In this document: positions 1,507 to 32,273 of the stretch, one piece after another | Layout of the letters: the number at the start of each line of letters is the position of its first letter | Numbering within the stretch: position 1 is the first letter of the stretch | Assembly: GCA_946481335.1 (NCBI GenBank) | Contig: CAMLMR010000009.1 | Span: 1 to 32,445, forward strand | DNA from: an uncultured Lactobacillus sp. | GTDB taxonomy: Bacteria; Bacillota; Bacilli; Lactobacillales; Lactobacillaceae | DNA length: 32,445 nt | Direction of reading: 5' to 3' | Notes under the pieces: generated by a model | The model's database searches: none | What the model was told of the DNA's origin: nothing | Seen by the model: only the letters and a program-made list of their open reading frames with translations | Translations under genes and position numbers: made by a program

Positions 1507-2727
1507 TTAGTTCTTATCGGTTTCAATTGATTTAATATTCTTACGAACTAGGAATAGATTAATTCCGGCTAGAATGGTTGTAGCGATGAACACACCACGG
1601 TAACCACCTATTAGAACAACGGCTGAACCAATCATTGGTCCAGTCACATTTCCGGCAGCTTGAAAACTTTGGTTCCAACTAAAGACCTGACTGATTCGAT
1701 CATGTGGACTGTACTTAGCTAAGATAGCTTGAACCGTAGGCAACAACGCCGCATCGGATATTCCAATTAAGAATCGTAATGTTCCTAATTGCCAGACGTT
1801 TTGAACGAATGTCGTTAGGAAGAATATCCCCATTGAAAAGACCAATCCAAATTTCAAGATTTGATGGGAACCAATCTTATCACCCAAACGACCAAAGAAT
1901 GGTGCAACGGATATCATTGCCACTCCGTTGATGGCTTGAATAATTCCAGCGGTCAACGCAATGTTGGTCGACGTTGGGTCCAATTGTTTAACATACAAAC
2001 TCAAAATGGGTGAGATTGAGTTATTAGTTGCTTGAATAAATAAGGTTGTTAAAAACATTCCAAACAAGATTTGTTTGGTAGGAATGCCTGATAGAAAATG
2101 AGGTTGTTTTTCCCCTTTTTCATGTGGAACTGGTTTGAAGTTTTCATGAACAAAAAAGATACTTAGAATAAATGCTACTAACATTGCCAAACCAGTAATC
2201 AAGAAAGTGTAACGATAGCCAAAAGTATCTGCAATTAATCCACCAATCATTGGTCCGATTAAAGTACCAGATACGTTTCCAGTCGCTAATTTTCCTGAAG
2301 CATGTCCTACATGACTCTTTGGTGTTTCCGCTGCAACTAACGCATTAGCATTACTAATGAATCCTGAAAAGACCCCTTGTAATAGACGCAATACAATTAA
2401 TTGCCATGCACTAGTAACCAGACTCATTGCACCAATTACAATGGCCATCCCCAAGGATGCTCTAAGTAACATTGGCTTTCGACCATACTTGTCGGCTAAA
2501 ATTCCCCACAATGGCGAAACAATCATTTTCACTAGGAAAGGCGCGGCGAACGCCATCCCACTATAGATTGATGTCTGAGTGGCATTGTAATTGCCTAGTT
2601 GACCTATAAATAATGCAATGAATGGACTGATACTACTAAATCCGATTCCAGCGACGAATGTTCCAAACCATAAAACGTTTAGGTTCTGTTTCCAATTTAT
2701 CTCTCGATCACCCAAGGGTGAACTCAT
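1507..2727 (-). CDS. MFS transporter, multidrug efflux type
   Basis: 406 aa, about 12 hydrophobic segments, motif GILADKYGRKPMLLRA; start may be the TTG at 2715 because AAGGAG directly abuts the ATG. Confidence 0.88.
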   Translation of the reverse strand: MSSPLGDREINWKQNLNVLWFGTFVAGIGFSSISPFIALFIGQLGNYNATQTSIYSGMAFAAPFLVKMIVSPLWGILADKYGRKPMLLRASLGMAIVIGAMSLVTSAWQLIVLRLLQGVFSGFISNANALVAAETPKSHVGHASGKLATGNVSGTLIGPMIGGLIADTFGYRYTFLITGLAMLVAFILSIFFVHENFKPVPHEKGEKQPHFLSGIPTKQILFGMFLTTLFIQATNNSISPILSLYVKQLDPTSTNIALTAGIIQAINGVAMISVAPFFGRLGDKIGSHQILKFGLVFSMGIFFLTTFVQNVWQLGTLRFLIGISDAALLPTVQAILAKYSPHDRISQVFSWNQSFQAAGNVTGPMIGSAVVLIGGYRGVFIATTILAGINLFLVRKNIKSIETDKN

Positions 2728-2875
2728 CTCCTTATTTTTTGAAATCTTGACACATAATTTAGAATTATAACACTTAAGGTACCTTTCTGTAATTATTAAG
2801 TAATTTTTAAGATTTCATCTATATATTTGAGCTAGAAAGAAACTGTGATAATATGTTCTAAATAAAACTTTCATC

Positions 2876-3112
2876 ATGGAGGTAAAAATAATGCAACACA
2901 CAGAGAGCTACTTTATGCTTTTCTCATACGGTGTATTTCTATTTGGTGCTATTTGTATGGGGATAGGATGGTTCTTCTTTAAGCTTCGCGCGATGTCTAA
3001 CCAACCAGCTTGGGACGGCATCGGTGGTAAGCTAATAAAGTTTGGTTTATTTATAGTTATAATTGGCGCAATCTTAGTAGGATTGGCTGTATATTTATTA
3101 GGAAGTAGATAG
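2876..3112 (+). CDS. Small membrane protein, 78 aa
   Basis: Two hydrophobic helices; an ATG (2891) follows GGAGG; extended -10 TGATAATAT upstream. Confidence 0.65.
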   Translation: MEVKIMQHTESYFMLFSYGVFLFGAICMGIGWFFFKLRAMSNQPAWDGIGGKLIKFGLFIVIIGAILVGLAVYLLGSR

Positions 3113-3121
3113 GTAAATAAT

Positions 3122-4144
3122 ATGAAAAAAACATTTAAAATGATTGCAGCAGCTGCTTTAATTGGTTCTGTATTAGCTTCTTCTGGTTCCGTTGTAACTA
3201 CTCATGCTAGTTCTACTAAAAAGGAATCAGCATTAATAAAAAAATTTAAGCAACAAACTACTGATGACGCAATTATTGCAACCAAAAAGTCAATCAGTAA
3301 ATTAACTACTGCTGATTTGAATAACTTCATTCCTACTCAAGCAATGAAGGTTTCAGGTAATGAGGTTACTGATCCTGGTTCTGATGCAAATTTTGTCACT
3401 AAAATTAACTACAAAGCAGCTAAAAACCCTAAAAATGTTATTAAGCTACCTAAAGGTTATACGAATGCTTCTTTAAAGAAAGCTGCTAGTGAAAAATCGA
3501 TTGGTAATTATAAATTACAAGTAAAAATGGGTAAGATTGGTCTAAATGGTCTAACAATAAACTCATTTACTCCAAGTAAAAAGGATCTAAGTCGTAATGT
3601 TAATCTAAACAAGATGACTTACAGTCAAAGAAAAGAACTTACTAAATTCGCACTTAGTGTATTAAATCCTGCTATTAAACAAGCCAAGGGAATTCAATAC
3701 AAGTCTTCTAAAAATACTATTGCAGTCGCCCAAACGTTCGCTAACGTTTACAGTAAAGACAACTGGAACAATACTGGCAAGAAAACTGGTCACGATTTAA
3801 GAACTAAAACAGTAGCATCAAAAAAATATAAAATTTCTGATGTTGCTGAAGAAAACTATAGTGACAACCCATCATTTGCTTTGACAAGTACTAAGATTAA
3901 AAAGCGCGTAGTTACAATGGCTGCTTTAAAACATGCAGTGTACAATTCAATTGCACTTCAATTATTTGAGGATGGACCATCATATTGGGGACATGCAACT
4001 GCCTTAATGAACTTGGACATTCACAAAAAATATCAACCAAATTATTTTGCTGTTTCATTTGATAAGTTTGGTGGAATTCATTTTGTGATGGTTCCACATA
4101 ATAAATTAGTTAACAAGAAATATAATCCAGGAGCACTCGTATAG
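3122..4144 (+). CDS. Secreted SEC10/PgrA surface-exclusion-domain-like protein
   Basis: Signal peptide MKKTFKMIAAAALIGSVLASSGSVVTTHAS; C-terminal ALKHAVYNSIALQLFEDGPSYWGHATALMN...GGIHFVMVPHNK resembles the SEC10/PgrA domain; no LPXTG. Confidence 0.6.
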   Translation: MKKTFKMIAAAALIGSVLASSGSVVTTHASSTKKESALIKKFKQQTTDDAIIATKKSISKLTTADLNNFIPTQAMKVSGNEVTDPGSDANFVTKINYKAAKNPKNVIKLPKGYTNASLKKAASEKSIGNYKLQVKMGKIGLNGLTINSFTPSKKDLSRNVNLNKMTYSQRKELTKFALSVLNPAIKQAKGIQYKSSKNTIAVAQTFANVYSKDNWNNTGKKTGHDLRTKTVASKKYKISDVAEENYSDNPSFALTSTKIKKRVVTMAALKHAVYNSIALQLFEDGPSYWGHATALMNLDIHKKYQPNYFAVSFDKFGGIHFVMVPHNKLVNKKYNPGALV

Positions 4145-24353: not shown

Positions 24354-25277
24354 CTATTTAAATTCAGGAAATGTCTTGTAAATCATTTTGTACATTCTTG
24401 ATTGGTCGTAAGCATTGAATCGATCATGTAAAGATACGATAATGACACGATTCTTGTTTGGTAATTGACTAGTACTTACCAGGCAGTTACCTGCTAGTGG
24501 TGTGTATCCAGTCTTTAATCCATCGACATGCAATGCTGCATTACCCGCCAATAATTCGTTGGCATTCTTTAAGGTTTGGCCACTTTGGTGGTAACGATAT
24601 AGCTTGGCATCGTTGACGATTGCTGGATACAATCTTAATAGGTTGGCAGCAATCACAGCTAATGCTTTTGCTGATACACGGTTGTAGTCATAACGTGAAC
24701 CGTATCGAATGTAATATGGATATAAGTCGGAATTTTCTAATCCGGATGAAGAAACGAATCGAGCTTGAGAACTAATTCCCCATGCCTTTACTTGCGCATT
24801 CATCTTCTTGATAAACTTGTTATTAGTACCGGACACCCATTGACCCAGTGCAATTGTGGCACTGTTTGATGACGCAATCAAGGAAGCCTTGTATAAGTTT
24901 CTAACGGTGTATTGCTTGTTAGCCTTTAATACGTAGCTACCTAAAGAATGGTGTCTACTCATATTTGCTAAACTGCGTGAAATTTTAACTTTTTGGTTCC
25001 AACCATTCTTGGTAGTTTGGGCCTTTTGGATTGCTAAGTATAATGTCATAATCTTAGCAGTTGAAGCAACAGCACGTTTAGAAGTTGCATTCTTTTGGTA
25101 GTAGACCTGGTTAGTATCCATGTTAATCGCATAAGTCGCGCTACTTGTCTTGTTGTACTTATTCATCGCTTTGGTATAACTACTGTTAGTGTTCGCACTT
25201 GCACTGACAGTAACAAATGATGATCCAAGCATAAAGATAGCAAGAAACGCTACCATCATGTTTTTGACTTTTCTCAT
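24354..25277 (-). CDS. D-alanyl-D-alanine carboxypeptidase (PBP5/DacA family)
   Basis: Signal peptide; STAK (SxxK), SSNSA (SxN) and KTG (LKTGYTPLAGNCL) motifs. Confidence 0.9.
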   Translation of the reverse strand: MRKVKNMMVAFLAIFMLGSSFVTVSASANTNSSYTKAMNKYNKTSSATYAINMDTNQVYYQKNATSKRAVASTAKIMTLYLAIQKAQTTKNGWNQKVKISRSLANMSRHHSLGSYVLKANKQYTVRNLYKASLIASSNSATIALGQWVSGTNNKFIKKMNAQVKAWGISSQARFVSSSGLENSDLYPYYIRYGSRYDYNRVSAKALAVIAANLLRLYPAIVNDAKLYRYHQSGQTLKNANELLAGNAALHVDGLKTGYTPLAGNCLVSTSQLPNKNRVIIVSLHDRFNAYDQSRMYKMIYKTFPEFK

Positions 25278-25412: not shown

Positions 25413-27935
25413 TTATTTAATTGATTCTCGGACAGCGTCTTTTTCAGATTCAACCAATTCAACGGAACTTGTAATTGCACTAGTATCCATCTTGATTTCA
25501 CGGGTTAAACCTGGAGTGTCTAGTTTTGGTTCAAAGAATGCTTTGAATTCATCTAGACGTGTTCTGGTATGGAAGATGTTTGAGATCACTGTAATGAATG
25601 TAGCAAATTCCATGTCACCACCAACAGTATCTTCTAGCCATTGCCATTCGTTTCTGATCCAATCCCATGCGAATTGTTGACCAGCTGGGTTTCTTAATAC
25701 ACCGGCAAACCAAGCACGTAAGTCTTGAGGTTTTACAACGCTACTATCTTCAAAGTTAGCCACTAGTTTACCTAATAGCTTAGCATCCTTAGTTGAAGTT
25801 AAAGCAGCGCAAATATCTGACTTGTAACTTGGGTCAGTTGATTGTTTGTATTCTTCCACTAATGAATCGAATTCTTCTGCGTTTGAGTAGTTCTTCATTT
25901 CATTAGCTAAGATGTATACACGGGTGTCAGCTGGTAATGATAACAAGTTTTCGTGATGGTCTTGGAAGATTGCGTGAGCAGCTTCAGCGAAGTCCTTGTT
26001 GTCATCGTATAATGCAGCACCTAAGATGTATGGACGAGTCAACTTATCGTTGTTGCTTTCACCATCAACACTAACTAAGCCTAAGCGGTCTAGTTGTTTG
26101 TCACTTAGTTGTCTGTATAACTTCTTCAAGTTGTCTTCGTCTTCAGTTCCTGGTTCAACAAACTTCTTCAAGTTGTTGGCTAGTGTGTAAACAGAGTCGT
26201 TAATCACATTAGATTCACTATCAGCAAATTGTTTTAGGACCGGAACAACGTCAGCGTATGACACCTGTTTGGCTTCAGCTAGTAAACGAAGGTCTTGTAG
26301 TAATTGCATCTTATCGATTGGGGATAGGTTATCTGCATCGTTTAAGATGTCTTCTTGTAATGTGTCATCGTATTTAACGATAAAGTGTGAGTTGTTACCA
26401 ACGTTTACTCTAAATGGCTTTCCATTTATCTTGCGTAATTCTTGGTAGTCACCTAAGTCGACAGTTTCTTCACTGAAGATATCAGGAGATTGATCGTAGT
26501 TTGCGTTTAAAGGAATTTGCCAACGACGGCCTTCATCCTTACCTTCACCTGTAAAGAATTGTTTTTGAGCTAGTTTCAAACGGTTATCTTCAACATATGC
26601 ATGGACAACTGGGTAACCTGGTTGTTCTAGCCATGATTCCATAATCTTGCCTAGGTCCATACCAGCAGCCTTACCAAGTGCATCCCATAGGTCAGCACCA
26701 GCGGCGTTACCATACTTGTGAGCAGCAAAGTAGTTCTTTAGACCTTCACGTAGTGCGTCGTCACCAATTAAGGCACGAACCATTACTAACATTCTGGCAC
26801 CCTTAGCGTAAACGATTGCGGCATCGAATAATGCATCAATTTCGGCTGGGTGGTGTACTTCAACGTGAACTGATTGAACACCGTCAACGGCATCACGTTT
26901 TAATGCTGCGGGAACGTCAGTTGTTTGGAATACTTCCCAAATGTTCCATGATGGTTCGATTGCATCAATCGCAACGTATTCCATCATGTTGGCAAAACTT
27001 TCGTTCAACCATAGGTCATCCCACCATCTCATGGTTACTAAATCACCGAACCATTGGTGAGCCAATTCATGGGCAATCACTGTAGCAACACGTTGTTTTA
27101 CTTCGAATGAAGTGTTGTCAGGATCTAGTAATAAGTAAGCTTCACGATAAGTTACTAGTCCCCAGTTTTCCATCGCACCTGCTGAGAAGTCAGGTAAGGC
27201 TAGTTGCCATGAATGTGGAAGTGGGTATGGTGTTTGATAGAAGTCTTCGAAGAATTCGATTGAGCGTTTAGCAATGTCTAAAGCAAAATCTAATTCCTTA
27301 GCGTCGTGAGCTTTGGTACCGAATACACCAACCTTGACACCACTCTTAGTTTCAGTCATCTTACTTTGCATGTCACCAAAGGCAAATGCAACTAAGTAAG
27401 TAGACATCTTAACAGTTTCATCGAAGTAATGAACACCATCTTCAACTTTGATTTCTGGCATATTAGCCAAAGCAGTTTCGCCAGGTTGTTCATCAAATTT
27501 AAGCGCTAGCTTAAACTTAGCCTTTGCTTCTGGTTCATCAATACAAGGAAACGCTTGTCTAGCAAAGTTGGTTTCAAATTGAGTTCCTACTAATTGTTTT
27601 TGTTCACCATTAACTTGGTAGTATGAAGGGTAAATTCCCATCATGGTATCAGTTAACTTGGCGGAGTATTCAATAGTTACGGCAACTTCACCGGTCTTAC
27701 CTAAAGATACGTTAATTACTTCGTTATCATTATCAACGTTAAAATCAACGGGAGTCCCATCTACTGAAACGCTGGTAACGTCAAAGTCTTTTTCGTGAAT
27801 GCCAATTTCTGATTCACTTGCATTACCGTAAATTGTGGTCTTTCCACTAAACTTCTTTTCACTACGGCTAACATCTAAATAGATATCGTAGTGATCTGGT
27901 TGAAATCGATTAAATAATCTAACTAATTCAGCCAT
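25413..27935 (-). CDS. pepN: Aminopeptidase N (M1 zinc metallopeptidase)
   Basis: GAMENWG and HELAHQWFGDLVT...WLNESFA motifs; ATG at 27935 (MAELVRLF) preferred over GTG at 27944. Confidence 0.96.
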   Translation of the reverse strand: MAELVRLFNRFQPDHYDIYLDVSRSEKKFSGKTTIYGNASESEIGIHEKDFDVTSVSVDGTPVDFNVDNDNEVINVSLGKTGEVAVTIEYSAKLTDTMMGIYPSYYQVNGEQKQLVGTQFETNFARQAFPCIDEPEAKAKFKLALKFDEQPGETALANMPEIKVEDGVHYFDETVKMSTYLVAFAFGDMQSKMTETKSGVKVGVFGTKAHDAKELDFALDIAKRSIEFFEDFYQTPYPLPHSWQLALPDFSAGAMENWGLVTYREAYLLLDPDNTSFEVKQRVATVIAHELAHQWFGDLVTMRWWDDLWLNESFANMMEYVAIDAIEPSWNIWEVFQTTDVPAALKRDAVDGVQSVHVEVHHPAEIDALFDAAIVYAKGARMLVMVRALIGDDALREGLKNYFAAHKYGNAAGADLWDALGKAAGMDLGKIMESWLEQPGYPVVHAYVEDNRLKLAQKQFFTGEGKDEGRRWQIPLNANYDQSPDIFSEETVDLGDYQELRKINGKPFRVNVGNNSHFIVKYDDTLQEDILNDADNLSPIDKMQLLQDLRLLAEAKQVSYADVVPVLKQFADSESNVINDSVYTLANNLKKFVEPGTEDEDNLKKLYRQLSDKQLDRLGLVSVDGESNNDKLTRPYILGAALYDDNKDFAEAAHAIFQDHHENLLSLPADTRVYILANEMKNYSNAEEFDSLVEEYKQSTDPSYKSDICAALTSTKDAKLLGKLVANFEDSSVVKPQDLRAWFAGVLRNPAGQQFAWDWIRNEWQWLEDTVGGDMEFATFITVISNIFHTRTRLDEFKAFFEPKLDTPGLTREIKMDTSAITSSVELVESEKDAVRESIK

Positions 27936-28062
27936 CAATAACACCCCTTCTTTATCATCATTTTCTCATTAGTTTTTAATTGTACGCTATTCAATTGTAA
28001 AATGCTACAAATATATTGTAGTGGTTAAAACCGTTTTATGCACATGTTAATAATTATATGTA

Positions 28063-28099
28063 TTAAAAAAAGACCCCGATATATTCTCGAGGTCTTCTT
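28063..28099 (-). terminator. Rho-independent terminator
   Basis: Minus strand AGACCTCGA-GAATATA-TCGGGGTCTTTTTTT. Confidence 0.7.
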
Positions 28100-28100
28100 G

Positions 28101-28748
28101 TTAGAATATTTGATTTAATCGTCTAACATCACTAATTTTAAAATGTTTATGTTGGCCATCTACTAACTTGTTACTCTTTTCATCACGTTTTACCAAACTG
28201 TATTGAGACTGATCTTGAATAAATTCTTGAATAATTGCTTTTAACCATTTAGTACTCTTAGTTTGGCTGATACGCATTTCAATTTCTTTTTGAATAACCT
28301 GTGTAGCGGCATTTAAGTCACTTTGTGAACTAGTAATGTCATATGTATCGTCACCATAGTCAAAATACTCGTTCATAAAATCAACGTATTGAGTTTCTAG
28401 ACGTTTGCTTGGCCACCAAGCCATTAGAATTGGTCGACGATCCTTTGCAGTGGACTTTTCCCACTTTTGACCGTTTCTTAAAATCATATTTGGTCGATAC
28501 CAGGTGTTAAACGTTAGATAACCATCTACAGTATCTATGTTGTGTTTATCAATCTTGTAAAACGCATTCTTGGCGGTATAATCATTTCGCGGATTATACG
28601 GCGGTTTTACAATTCCTGAAGTTTCTGCCTTGGAATTAGAAATCGATAGAATCAATCCAATCCCAAACAAAGTCGCTACCACGACTGCGCATGTCGCAAT
28701 CGAAAGTAGTAATTTTTTACGCAAGAAACTCAGCTGTCCTTTTTTCAT
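28101..28748 (-). CDS. Membrane-anchored GH70 glucansucrase N-terminal-domain-like protein without catalytic core
   Basis: TM anchor, then VDGYLTFNTWYRPNMILRNGQKWEKSTAKDRRPILMAWWPSKRLETQYVDFMN and SSQSDLNAATQVIQKEIEMRISQTKSTKWLKAIIQEFI, which resemble GH70 glucansucrases; ATG at 28748 follows GGGAG. Confidence 0.7.
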   Translation of the reverse strand: MKKGQLSFLRKKLLLSIATCAVVVATLFGIGLILSISNSKAETSGIVKPPYNPRNDYTAKNAFYKIDKHNIDTVDGYLTFNTWYRPNMILRNGQKWEKSTAKDRRPILMAWWPSKRLETQYVDFMNEYFDYGDDTYDITSSQSDLNAATQVIQKEIEMRISQTKSTKWLKAIIQEFIQDQSQYSLVKRDEKSNKLVDGQHKHFKISDVRRLNQIF

Positions 28749-28860
28749 TATAAGCACTCCCAGTTTCATATTGTGATGTTAATTTTACCATAAAAGAGCT
28801 TTTCTCTTGATTAATCTTCTGATTAATGAAATATTACTTAATATTGTTTTATTTTAGGAG

Positions 28861-29505
28861 ATGTTTATATTGAAAGCAAAGATGTTGTTTAGAATCATCT
28901 TGTACATAATCGGGCTGAACGTTTTAGCCCTTGGTACAACACTATTTGCTTGCGGAAAACTCGGGGTTAGTTCATTAGTTTCTGTTCCACAAACATTGTC
29001 ATTTATTATCCACACCACTTTGGGCCATGCCACCACCATGTTCTTCATCGTCTTGGTATTAATTCAATTATTAATTGTTAGAAGATTTGAATTAAAAATC
29101 GTCCTACAATTAGTGCTAGCATTCATATTCGGCTGGTTGGTTGATTTCTACGGATTAACAGTTGGATTAAAACGAATCCCATTAAATGGATATGCTGAAA
29201 GAATTCCGGTCACATTATTAGCCATCTTATGTACTGCATTAGGTATCTTTATGATGGTAAAGGCTTCTTTCGTGTTAATTCCAGCAGATGGGTTCGTTAA
29301 CGTCATCAGCGAAAAACTACATAAACCTTTTGGCCAAATGAAGTTCTGTTTCGATGCATCAATGATTGTCATCACAATCATTTTAGGATTGGTATTTCTA
29401 CATCACATTACTTCAATTGGAATCGGAACTGTTTTGGCAGTGCTATTCGTTGGTCAATTGATTAACCTATTTAATTACATTGTCGATAAGACTAAAAAAG
29501 CTTAA
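28861..29505 (+). CDS. YczE/YitT-like integral membrane protein
   Basis: GLNVLALGTTLFACGKLGVSSLVSVPQTLS, FIFGWLVDFYGL, ALGIFMMVKASFVLIPADGFVNVIS; probable TTG start at 28870, 9 nt after AGGAG. Confidence 0.75.
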   Translation: MFILKAKMLFRIILYIIGLNVLALGTTLFACGKLGVSSLVSVPQTLSFIIHTTLGHATTMFFIVLVLIQLLIVRRFELKIVLQLVLAFIFGWLVDFYGLTVGLKRIPLNGYAERIPVTLLAILCTALGIFMMVKASFVLIPADGFVNVISEKLHKPFGQMKFCFDASMIVITIILGLVFLHHITSIGIGTVLAVLFVGQLINLFNYIVDKTKKA

Positions 29506-29534: not shown

Positions 29535-30416
29535 TTAAGCATTAAGAATATTTTCAACAGCTTGATGAATACTGTTTCTCTTGTTTGCGATCGTGATTGA
29601 TTGAGCAGAATAATGAGTAGCCTTTTCAACGTGCAAACCTAATCCGTATAATTTGTTGATAGTATCAACTAAGTCTTTAGATTCTACACCCAAACAAATT
29701 ACTCCCTTAGGTTTAATTAAATTCATAAGGTAAACAAATGAAGGAATATCGTATTTAGTTAATCTATCGACTAGACGATTTAGGATTTCTGCCTTACAAG
29801 TTGGACATGCACTAGGTTTACCATCTTCATGTTCTGGATCTGTGCATTTCGCTGCAAATTCACTGTAGTCATAATTAGGAACAGCACTCATATCGAAGTT
29901 ACTTACGTTGCCTAATGATGGCTTCTTTTCTTTTAATAAATTTTTCAAGCTATTAACAAATCCCTTTAAATTAGTACATGAAAACTTATTAATGATATCA
30001 AAAACAAAACTACCATAGGCTTCTGACTTGTCCAAAGAGTCTGTGTTCTCGATAGTATCAGTTCCAGTTTGGGATGAAGGTGTACCGTGTAAATCGATTA
30101 ATGAAGCAGCTAACTTAGCGTCATTTCCTTTTTTATAATCATGCATGGTTTGAAAACCACGACCATCATAACCGCCAACACGTTGGGCATAGTTTAATCC
30201 AACAAACACAATGCCACTATCTAAATTAATATCGTTTAGAAAAGCATCGCTGTTAATGTAGTCGTCCTCTAATTCGACATTTTTAGTTGATCCGGGCCCA
30301 AAAATATTATTCACGTTAGCTTTCGGATAGGTTAAGAAACTAGAAACCTCATCATATCCATTTTTCTTAAGGGTGTTAATAATATCTTTTTTCTCACCGA
30401 TTCCGTAATTGCTCAT
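29535..30416 (-). CDS. Uracil-DNA glycosylase-superfamily-like protein (tentative)
   Basis: 293 aa; GIVFVGLNYAQR (GxNP-like), LIKPKGVICLGVESKDLVDTIN, THYSA (HPS-like) and a Cys/His cluster CTDPEHEDGKPSACPTC. Confidence 0.4.
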   Translation of the reverse strand: MSNYGIGEKKDIINTLKKNGYDEVSSFLTYPKANVNNIFGPGSTKNVELEDDYINSDAFLNDINLDSGIVFVGLNYAQRVGGYDGRGFQTMHDYKKGNDAKLAASLIDLHGTPSSQTGTDTIENTDSLDKSEAYGSFVFDIINKFSCTNLKGFVNSLKNLLKEKKPSLGNVSNFDMSAVPNYDYSEFAAKCTDPEHEDGKPSACPTCKAEILNRLVDRLTKYDIPSFVYLMNLIKPKGVICLGVESKDLVDTINKLYGLGLHVEKATHYSAQSITIANKRNSIHQAVENILNA

Positions 30417-30526: not shown

Positions 30527-31006
30527 TTATTTAAAATTACGACGGTATCCTAAATACATTGAGGCAACAAATCCTATTGGATATATAACAAAGAGAATAA
30601 AGTCGAAGCCGCCGCCCAAAATTAAGTTGAAACAAATAAGAAGCGTCATTATAGCTACTAATGTAATTAAATTTTGAATGATAAAACTTCTGATAGCTAT
30701 TTTTCGTTCACTGTCGTTACCATAATCATATTCATCTAATCCATGTCGTTTCACGACGATATCCATATATGTTAATGCAATTAAAACGGCTATTGAATCT
30801 GCAAAAATCATCCCGATCGCAATATCGGAAGTATCGTCAAAGTTCCCTATTCCAAGTGATACAAAGATCGAAGCAAACAGAAAGATAATCAGTCCAAATG
30901 CCACCTTGTTGGCCGCCTCAGAAATTACCTTATTGGTAAATTCATCAAACGGTTCATTAATACCGTAAATAAATTTAATCATCTTAGTAAAAAAAGATTC
31001 CTTCAT
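30527..31006 (-). CDS. DUF3278-like membrane protein, paralogue 3
   Basis: KFIYGINEPFDEFTNKVISEAANKVAFGLIIFLFAS; 4 TM-like segments; MKESFFTK start at 31006 after GAGGTGA. Confidence 0.65.
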   Translation of the reverse strand: MKESFFTKMIKFIYGINEPFDEFTNKVISEAANKVAFGLIIFLFASIFVSLGIGNFDDTSDIAIGMIFADSIAVLIALTYMDIVVKRHGLDEYDYGNDSERKIAIRSFIIQNLITLVAIMTLLICFNLILGGGFDFILFVIYPIGFVASMYLGYRRNFK

Positions 31007-31017
31007 ATTCATTCACC

Positions 31018-31515
31018 TCATTTTTTAAATAGACGACAATACTGGGTATAGATTGCCACCAAAATACCAATAAAACAACCGATAAACATTGGCCAAATAC
31101 TTTCGGTCATTCCCAAATATCTAAACCAAACTGAAATTGGATACATAGCAAGTGACAAAGTCACTACCGTCGTTAATAATCTGCTGATAATAAATTTTTT
31201 ACCATAAATCTTTCGTTCTTCTTCGTTATCAAATTCATAGCGATCCAATTTATTTTTTCTAATGATTCTACCCATATATGCACTTGCAATGAAATACACA
31301 AAGGTGTCAGCAATGATTAAACCATTTACTACATTCATAGGACTGAACCAATTTATCAGTACCATCAATGCATATGCTGACACAAGAAGATACACCATTA
31401 ACCAAATCGCGATTTTATTTCCAGCATCGTTAATGACGTCCCTTGCAAACTCATCAAACGGTTTGCTAATTCCATAAAAATTTTTAACTAGTTTTATAAA
31501 CAAAGATTCTTTCAT
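31018..31515 (-). CDS. DUF3278-like membrane protein, paralogue 2
   Basis: MKESLFIKLVKNFYGISKPFDEFARDVINDAGNKIAIWLMVYLLVS; 4 TM-like segments. Confidence 0.65.
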   Translation of the reverse strand: MKESLFIKLVKNFYGISKPFDEFARDVINDAGNKIAIWLMVYLLVSAYALMVLINWFSPMNVVNGLIIADTFVYFIASAYMGRIIRKNKLDRYEFDNEEERKIYGKKFIISRLLTTVVTLSLAMYPISVWFRYLGMTESIWPMFIGCFIGILVAIYTQYCRLFKK

Positions 31516-31518
31516 CGG

Positions 31519-31719
31519 CTATTCCACTCCTTCATTCCAAAATAAAGTATTCAAATCTGTTTTTAGCGATTTGGCAATGTTGAAACATAGCTTCAAGCTT
31601 GGGTTGTACTCTCCCTTTTCAATCAAACTTAACGTTTGACGGGAAATACCTACAGACTTAGCCAAATCCTTTTGCTGCACATTTTCTTTTGTGCGTATTT
31701 CTCTAACACGATTGTCCAA
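31519..31719 (-). CDS. XRE/Cro-CI-type HTH transcriptional regulator (YozG-like size)
   Basis: NVQQKDLAKSVGISRQTLSLIEKGEYNPSLKLCFNIAKSL; TTG start at 31719, 5 nt after GGGGAG. Confidence 0.88.
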   Translation of the reverse strand: MDNRVREIRTKENVQQKDLAKSVGISRQTLSLIEKGEYNPSLKLCFNIAKSLKTDLNTLFWNEGVE

Positions 31720-31742
31720 AATAACTCCCCGCAATCTTTCCG

Positions 31743-32273
31743 TTATTTTTGAATTTTCTTTTTTTGTCTAAAATATGTCGCAATACCAATAAAAATAGAT
31801 AAGACTATAGAAATAATATTAAGTCTTAGATTTAAAAAAGCCGAAATAAAGGATACATCATCGCTCAATGCAGTTCCGATAACCCCATATAATCTTGTAA
31901 ATAACAAAAAAAGTATTCCTGAAATTATTCCTTGGCGTCTCGCTCTTCTTATTAAATCTTGATATGATAATTTATCATTTGCATCAACTAAATCAATTTT
32001 ACTCATTTTAATCCTATGAGTTAGATAAAATCCTACAAGCAAGAGCAAAAAAAAGTTAATCATTATTAAAATTGAGAACATATTAATTTTTAAATCATCG
32101 GAAAACGATGAAATAATGATGATAGACATTGCAAGAACTTCTATAAAGCTAAAAATAAAATAATACGCAAATGCATAAAATCCTGATTTATAAAGTTCTG
32201 CTTGTTGATATTCATCCATTTTAGACGGCAATCCAAATTCGTATTTAATGACTTTAAGTAATAATTGTTTCAC
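31743..32273 (-). CDS. DUF3278-like membrane protein, paralogue 1 (divergent)
   Basis: VIKYEFGLPSKMDEYQQAELYKSGFYAFAYYFIFSF; 4 TM-like segments; same operon orientation. Confidence 0.55.
   Translation of the reverse strand: MKQLLLKVIKYEFGLPSKMDEYQQAELYKSGFYAFAYYFIFSFIEVLAMSIIIISSFSDDLKINMFSILIMINFFLLLLVGFYLTHRIKMSKIDLVDANDKLSYQDLIRRARRQGIISGILFLLFTRLYGVIGTALSDDVSFISAFLNLRLNIISIVLSIFIGIATYFRQKKKIQK

Follow-up and report, generated by a model that had tools for sequence, protein, structure and literature searches.

The 215–amino acid product of a gene at positions 28101–28748 (minus strand, stop codon included) of a 32,445-nucleotide stretch of DNA, hereafter the window, is homologous to GH70 enzymes and lacks their catalytic core. 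The source genome belongs to the Apilactobacillus kunkeei group, in which the gene is under selection and in conserved gene order. We consider it probable that the protein is a non-catalytic, exported, free-standing GH70 domain IV that arose by excision of the core, and we more tentatively ascribe to it a binding or adaptor role.

Gene signals and GH70 homology

The gene was delimited from its open reading frame, from Pfam and PDB matches, and from seven copies of the same length. A Shine-Dalgarno sequence, GGGAG (28757–28761, minus strand), is located 8 nucleotides before the ATG at 28748, and an intrinsic terminator consisting of a hairpin and a T-run (28067–28099, minus strand; ΔG of –17.4 kcal/mol, z of –6.4) lies directly 3' of the stop codon. 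The original prediction, which credited the gene with its own Shine-Dalgarno sequence, start, and terminator, was thus correct on this point. A second in-frame ATG is present at 28769, 7 codons upstream of the first.

Residues 13 to 37 (28638–28712, minus strand) form a nearly invariant hydrophobic stretch, with a Kyte-Doolittle value of 2.38 over 19 residues, that may be either a long signal-peptide h-region or an NH2-terminal transmembrane helix. It is followed by S-K/R-A (residues 39 to 41; 28626–28634, minus strand), a putative signal peptidase I site before ETSG that is kept in 7/7 copies. The membrane anchoring put forward in the original prediction is possible, but given that S-K/R-A|ETS follows the hydrophobic stretch in all copies, cleavage and secretion may also occur, and cleavage after S-K/R-A would yield a mature product of 174 amino acids. 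Both an anchored and a cleaved form are considered here, because the hydrophobic stretch is long, yet S-K/R-A|ETS is kept everywhere. The protein is possibly exported in one of these two forms.

The resemblance to GH70 enzymes that had been noted from the sequence alone was borne out by profile and structure databases. The Pfam family PF02324 (Glyco_hydro_70) matched residues 107 to 187 (E = 1.9e-19; 69.7 bits, with a cut-off of 24 bits; profile positions 1–81 of 831) and was the sole family above its cut-off, with the glucan-binding repeat family (domain V) being absent from the Pfam matches of the protein. With phmmer, PDB chains including those of glucosyltransferase-S, alternansucrase, and DSR-M matched residues 54 to 185/191, with E values down to 1.3e-31. 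In a PDB alignment, residues 59 to 168 aligned with the beginning of the chain of GtfB, with the residue offset being deduced from chain lengths. In GtfB of Lr121, domain IV comprises an NH2-terminal segment, IVn (residues 761–898, 138 amino acids), and a COOH-terminal segment, IVc (1586–1614, 29 amino acids) (PMC9732880). With these borders, residues 52 to 184 of the 215–amino acid protein (28197–28595, minus strand) correspond to IVn. Of 37 strongly conserved IVn positions of GH70, 31 are kept or conservatively replaced; up to residue 183 most of the conserved positions are retained, and half of the lost positions lie at residues 184 to 188, at the border between IVn and domain B. Sequence and conserved positions together thus indicate that the protein carries IVn of GH70 domain IV.

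The protein stops about 30 residues past the IVn segment, and neither the nucleophile, acid/base, and stabiliser motifs (II, III, and IV) nor the (β/α)8 barrel was found in it, as expected from the earlier claim that the catalytic core is missing. We therefore do not class it as a GH70 enzyme despite the PF02324 match. A profile alone would give it that name, which calls for caution in annotation.

The COOH-terminal tail and the origin of the gene

The nearest full-length relative is a compact GH70 protein of 874 amino acids from the sister species G002 (L106:5101–7725), which contains an export signal and a core with three catalytic motifs at about residues 258, 296, and 368. Its gene is located directly upstream of pepN-dacA and in the same orientation, with a gap of about 160 bp to pepN, compared with the 156 bp that separate the short gene from pepN in the window. 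The two genes thus share the pepN-dacA slot, a putative export signal right before IVn, 47% identity in IVn, and a similar end, whereas the G002 gene has a full core with the catalytic motifs and about 690 codons more than the short gene. Upstream of the G002 gene are two reverse transcriptase–like genes, called on the basis of motifs (L106:363–2348, minus strand, and 2639–3922, plus strand).

When the last ~28 residues of the short protein (residues 188 to 215; 28104–28187, minus strand) were searched across the 881-residue G002 frame, the best place was the extreme COOH-terminus, with the match ending at residue 880 of 881. The real score was reached by 2/150 shuffles for the whole G002 protein and by 4/3000 for its last 45 residues, and the tail ranked the G002 COOH-terminus first among 152 COOH-termini. 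In the PDB alignment, the G002 COOH-terminus aligned near the end of the GtfB chain. A generic GH70 IVc profile added no significant score to the tail, with 44/150 column shuffles equalling it (hhalign), and the support for IVc is limited to the G002 tail. Domain IV usually contains 170–180 amino acids in total (PMC9732880), a range that includes the 174 amino acids of the predicted mature product. AlphaFold2 run with shallow alignments gave pLDDT values of 40 for the whole protein and 36 for the mature part, which are too low to show a domain IV fold.

The tail is probably IVc, and with the tail read in this manner the protein would contain a complete domain IV (IVn plus IVc), a reading that we hold with moderate confidence. 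The designation of the protein as an NH2-terminal segment in the original prediction was therefore accurate with regard to the presence of IVn and probably not with regard to its being NH2-terminal only, given the G002 gene and the published borders (PMC9732880). Simple NH2-terminal truncation, in which IVn acquired an unrelated new COOH-terminal tail and domain IV is incomplete, would account for the nonsignificant generic IVc profile as well as for the fact that the tail is the fastest-changing part of the protein besides the short linker (dN of 0.25 relative to A. kunkeei DSM 12361). We consider this explanation rather unlikely, however, in that the tail matches the COOH-terminus of the nearest full-length relative end to end and its 28 residues equal the length of IVc.

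A tree of IVn grouped the short proteins with G002 and the non–glucan-binding GH70 proteins of Apilactobacillus with support of 92/91, and grouped the short proteins with G002 alone with a bootstrap value of 64%. Two of the genes for non–glucan-binding GH70 proteins (L053 and L054, in G013 and G005) have one TAA within the matched region, and internal stop codons have been described in some of the GH70 genes of A. kunkeei.

For an origin by core excision, an ancestral Apilactobacillus would have carried, next to pepN, a compact GH70 gene encoding a signal peptide and core. Loss of domains B, A, and C by in-frame deletion (of about 690 codons, corresponding to G002 residues of about 158 to 851) would have joined both chain segments of domain IV, to give a signal or anchor followed by IVn and IVc. 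A short linker could close the gap, in that the connections between domain IV and domain B lie next to each other; in the single-segment domain IV of GtfC, two adjacent loops connect to domain B (PMC9732880). The product may then have changed rapidly for a time before coming under the purifying selection seen across the A. kunkeei group, with the excised domain presumably keeping its fold and acting outside the cytoplasm, either anchored or secreted.

The slot is occupied by genes other than GH70 in seven genomes (G001, G003, G007, G009, G010, G012, and G014). Given such slots in other species and an intervening LPXTG gene, orthology with the G002 gene requires losses or a second insertion. 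The short gene and the G002 gene might thus represent two separate insertions at the slot rather than common descent. The simplest reading is that a GH70 gene was ancestral at the slot, with its core being lost in the lineage of the window and the gene being lost or displaced elsewhere. In the outgroup G001, the short gene is replaced by a gene for a 2119–amino acid surface protein with many repeat units (L102:1665–8024, minus strand). The LPXTG gene encodes a leucine-rich-repeat surface protein (749–756 amino acids in L035 and L031) and is located on the pepN side of the short gene in five of the other carriers (L030, L031, L033, L034, and L035); no such gene is present between 27945 and 28100 of the window or in A. 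zhangqiuensis (L032). The contig of A. kunkeei LMbo ends before pepN.

Selection and possible function

The gene is present in 7/16 Apilactobacillus genomes, at one locus. The carriers, which are bee-associated bacteria, include three A. kunkeei entries as well as A. waqarii, A. nanyangensis, and A. zhangqiuensis. The six other copies are 82–93% identical to that in the window, and all have 215 codons with no indel. Pairwise dN/dS ranged from 0.05 to 0.12 for most pairs among the seven copies, with values of 0.14 and 0.25 being obtained only for two near-identical A. kunkeei pairs (19 and 6 changes, respectively); dS between species was 0.25–1.2. The core of the protein evolves with a lower dN/dS than does the tail, and dN is lower for the neighbouring pepN and DUF6198 genes than for the short gene. 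The low pairwise dN/dS and constant length show that the gene is under purifying selection, and it is changing faster than its neighbours. The check proposed with the original prediction, a search for same-length orthologues together with dN/dS analysis, thus revealed neither variable-length remnants nor dN/dS near 1, and the view that the gene is not just decay was upheld.

With regard to function, we tentatively favour a binding or adaptor role outside the cytoplasm over catalysis or glucan binding; the domain would act as a non-enzymatic module that touches a protein or envelope partner. An alternative is that the loose domain IV acts in trans as a partner, regulator, or decoy that competes with or complements full enzymes and thereby tunes glucan synthesis. 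The strong retention of GH70-conserved IVn residues and the presence of full GH70 genes in 5/7 carriers are compatible with such a role. Two carriers (G006 and G008), however, have the short gene and no other GH70 match at 99% completeness, with the result that the short product needs no glucansucrase of its own genome, and GH70 genes turn over fast between strains (PMC12849098) whereas the short gene is steady. We judge this alternative unlikely, and an obligate form of the glucansucrase-partner role suggested earlier is disfavoured by the two genomes that keep the gene without a full GH70 gene.

Glucan binding, also suggested earlier, would make the protein an anchored surface receptor for dextran from its own cell or from neighbours. 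Its GH70 ancestry and the conserved aromatic motifs WYRP and WWP might be taken in its favour, but these motifs are kept GH70-wide, as expected of structural residues, known glucan-binding pockets are located in domain V rather than in domain IV (PMC8398850), and no carbohydrate sites were seen in domain IV (PMC9732880). We regard this role as quite improbable. Truncated GH70 genes are known in A. kunkeei (PMC12849098), but decay of a GH70 pseudogene has almost no likelihood here and was rejected on the basis of the fixed length of seven intact copies, the low dN/dS (near 0.1) at such between-species dS, and the gene's own Shine-Dalgarno sequence and terminator.

Relation to known proteins, distribution, and neighbouring genes

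Domain IV distinguishes GH70 from GH13; its role has been called unclear, and no relatives of its fold were known (PMC9732880, PMC11299179). The domain IV of GtfB and of permuted glucansucrases (for instance, GTF180, 3KLK, and Lr121 GtfB, 5JBD) has the same DGYLT, WYRP, and WWP motifs and following helical stretch as the short protein, together with the size of 170–180 amino acids, and the tail of the short protein resembles its IVc. Unlike these enzymes, the short protein is free-standing, without domains A, B, C, and V, has a putative export signal of its own, and has its COOH-terminal segment joined straight to the NH2-terminal one. The single-segment domain IV of GtfC (7ZC0) is likewise contiguous, and the IVc-like part maps to its NH2-terminal end; the GtfC domain differs, however, in that it forms an insertion within the domain B of an enzyme, in its non-permuted order, and in its size of 110 amino acids. 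Domain IV has been proposed to act as a hinge that links auxiliary domains to the catalytic core (PMC11299179, PMC6070258). It is conceivable, and we put this forward only tentatively, that a hinge domain that an ancient circular permutation had split in two was closed again when the core was excised and then came under selection for an extracytoplasmic function independent of glucan synthesis. A natural, selected, free-standing domain IV would offer a direct way to study the function and folding of the domain without the enzyme, and the gene is, in a tractable bee symbiont, a candidate example of an enzyme that evolved into a non-enzyme through excision of its core.

A 2026 paper on the GH70 and GH32 enzymes of A. 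kunkeei mentions, in one sentence, a conserved gene for a protein of ~90 amino acids similar to the NH2-terminal ends of GH70 domains (PMC12849098) and sets it aside without analysis of origin, selection, or tail. This gene very probably belongs to the short gene family; the Pfam match covers ~81 residues, and the figure of ~90 amino acids may refer to the annotated domain rather than to the whole protein. The literature searched did not describe a core-excision origin, selection, or domain IV identity for the short gene, and the main-text passages of A. kunkeei secretome papers do not name the protein.

Among 401 Lactobacillaceae genomes, 76 had GH70-type matches, and a free-standing form was found only at the seven loci of the A. 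kunkeei group. An order-wide sample of 398 Lactobacillales genomes, partly overlapping the 401, yielded no further free-standing copy, with these two non-exhaustive samples amounting to ~800 genomes in sum. Viral contigs contained no relatives of the short gene, and matches in a plasmid collection were GH70 genes where annotated, with none spanning 80% of the query. A 200–amino acid frame with an NH2-terminal match in G348 (L115) was rejected as a second free-standing case, being a frameshifted full-length GH70 gene.

Downstream of the short gene in the window are pepN (25413–27944, minus strand), which encodes aminopeptidase N, was named from the original prediction and sequence resemblance, and marks the conserved slot, and then a dacA-like gene (24354–25277, minus strand) that resembles those for D-Ala-D-Ala carboxypeptidases and comes next in the conserved order. 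The 156 bp that separate pepN from the short gene contain the terminator and leave too little room for GH70 debris of note, consistent with the original statement that no such debris is present. On the other side, a divergent gene for a DUF6198 (YczE-like) membrane protein (28861–29505, plus strand; PF19700, E = 2e-15) adjoins the short gene in 7/7 genomes. Beyond it, 29535–30416 encodes a 293–amino acid protein that has no Pfam match and has relatives with 52% and 28% identity near the same locus in G001 and G011, respectively. The region from 30527 to 32273 contains three genes for DUF3278-like membrane proteins, two assigned by Pfam and the third by similarity, as well as a small XRE-type HTH gene (31519–31734) among them. 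The two nearest DUF3278-like copies vary strongly between species (~45–94% identity).
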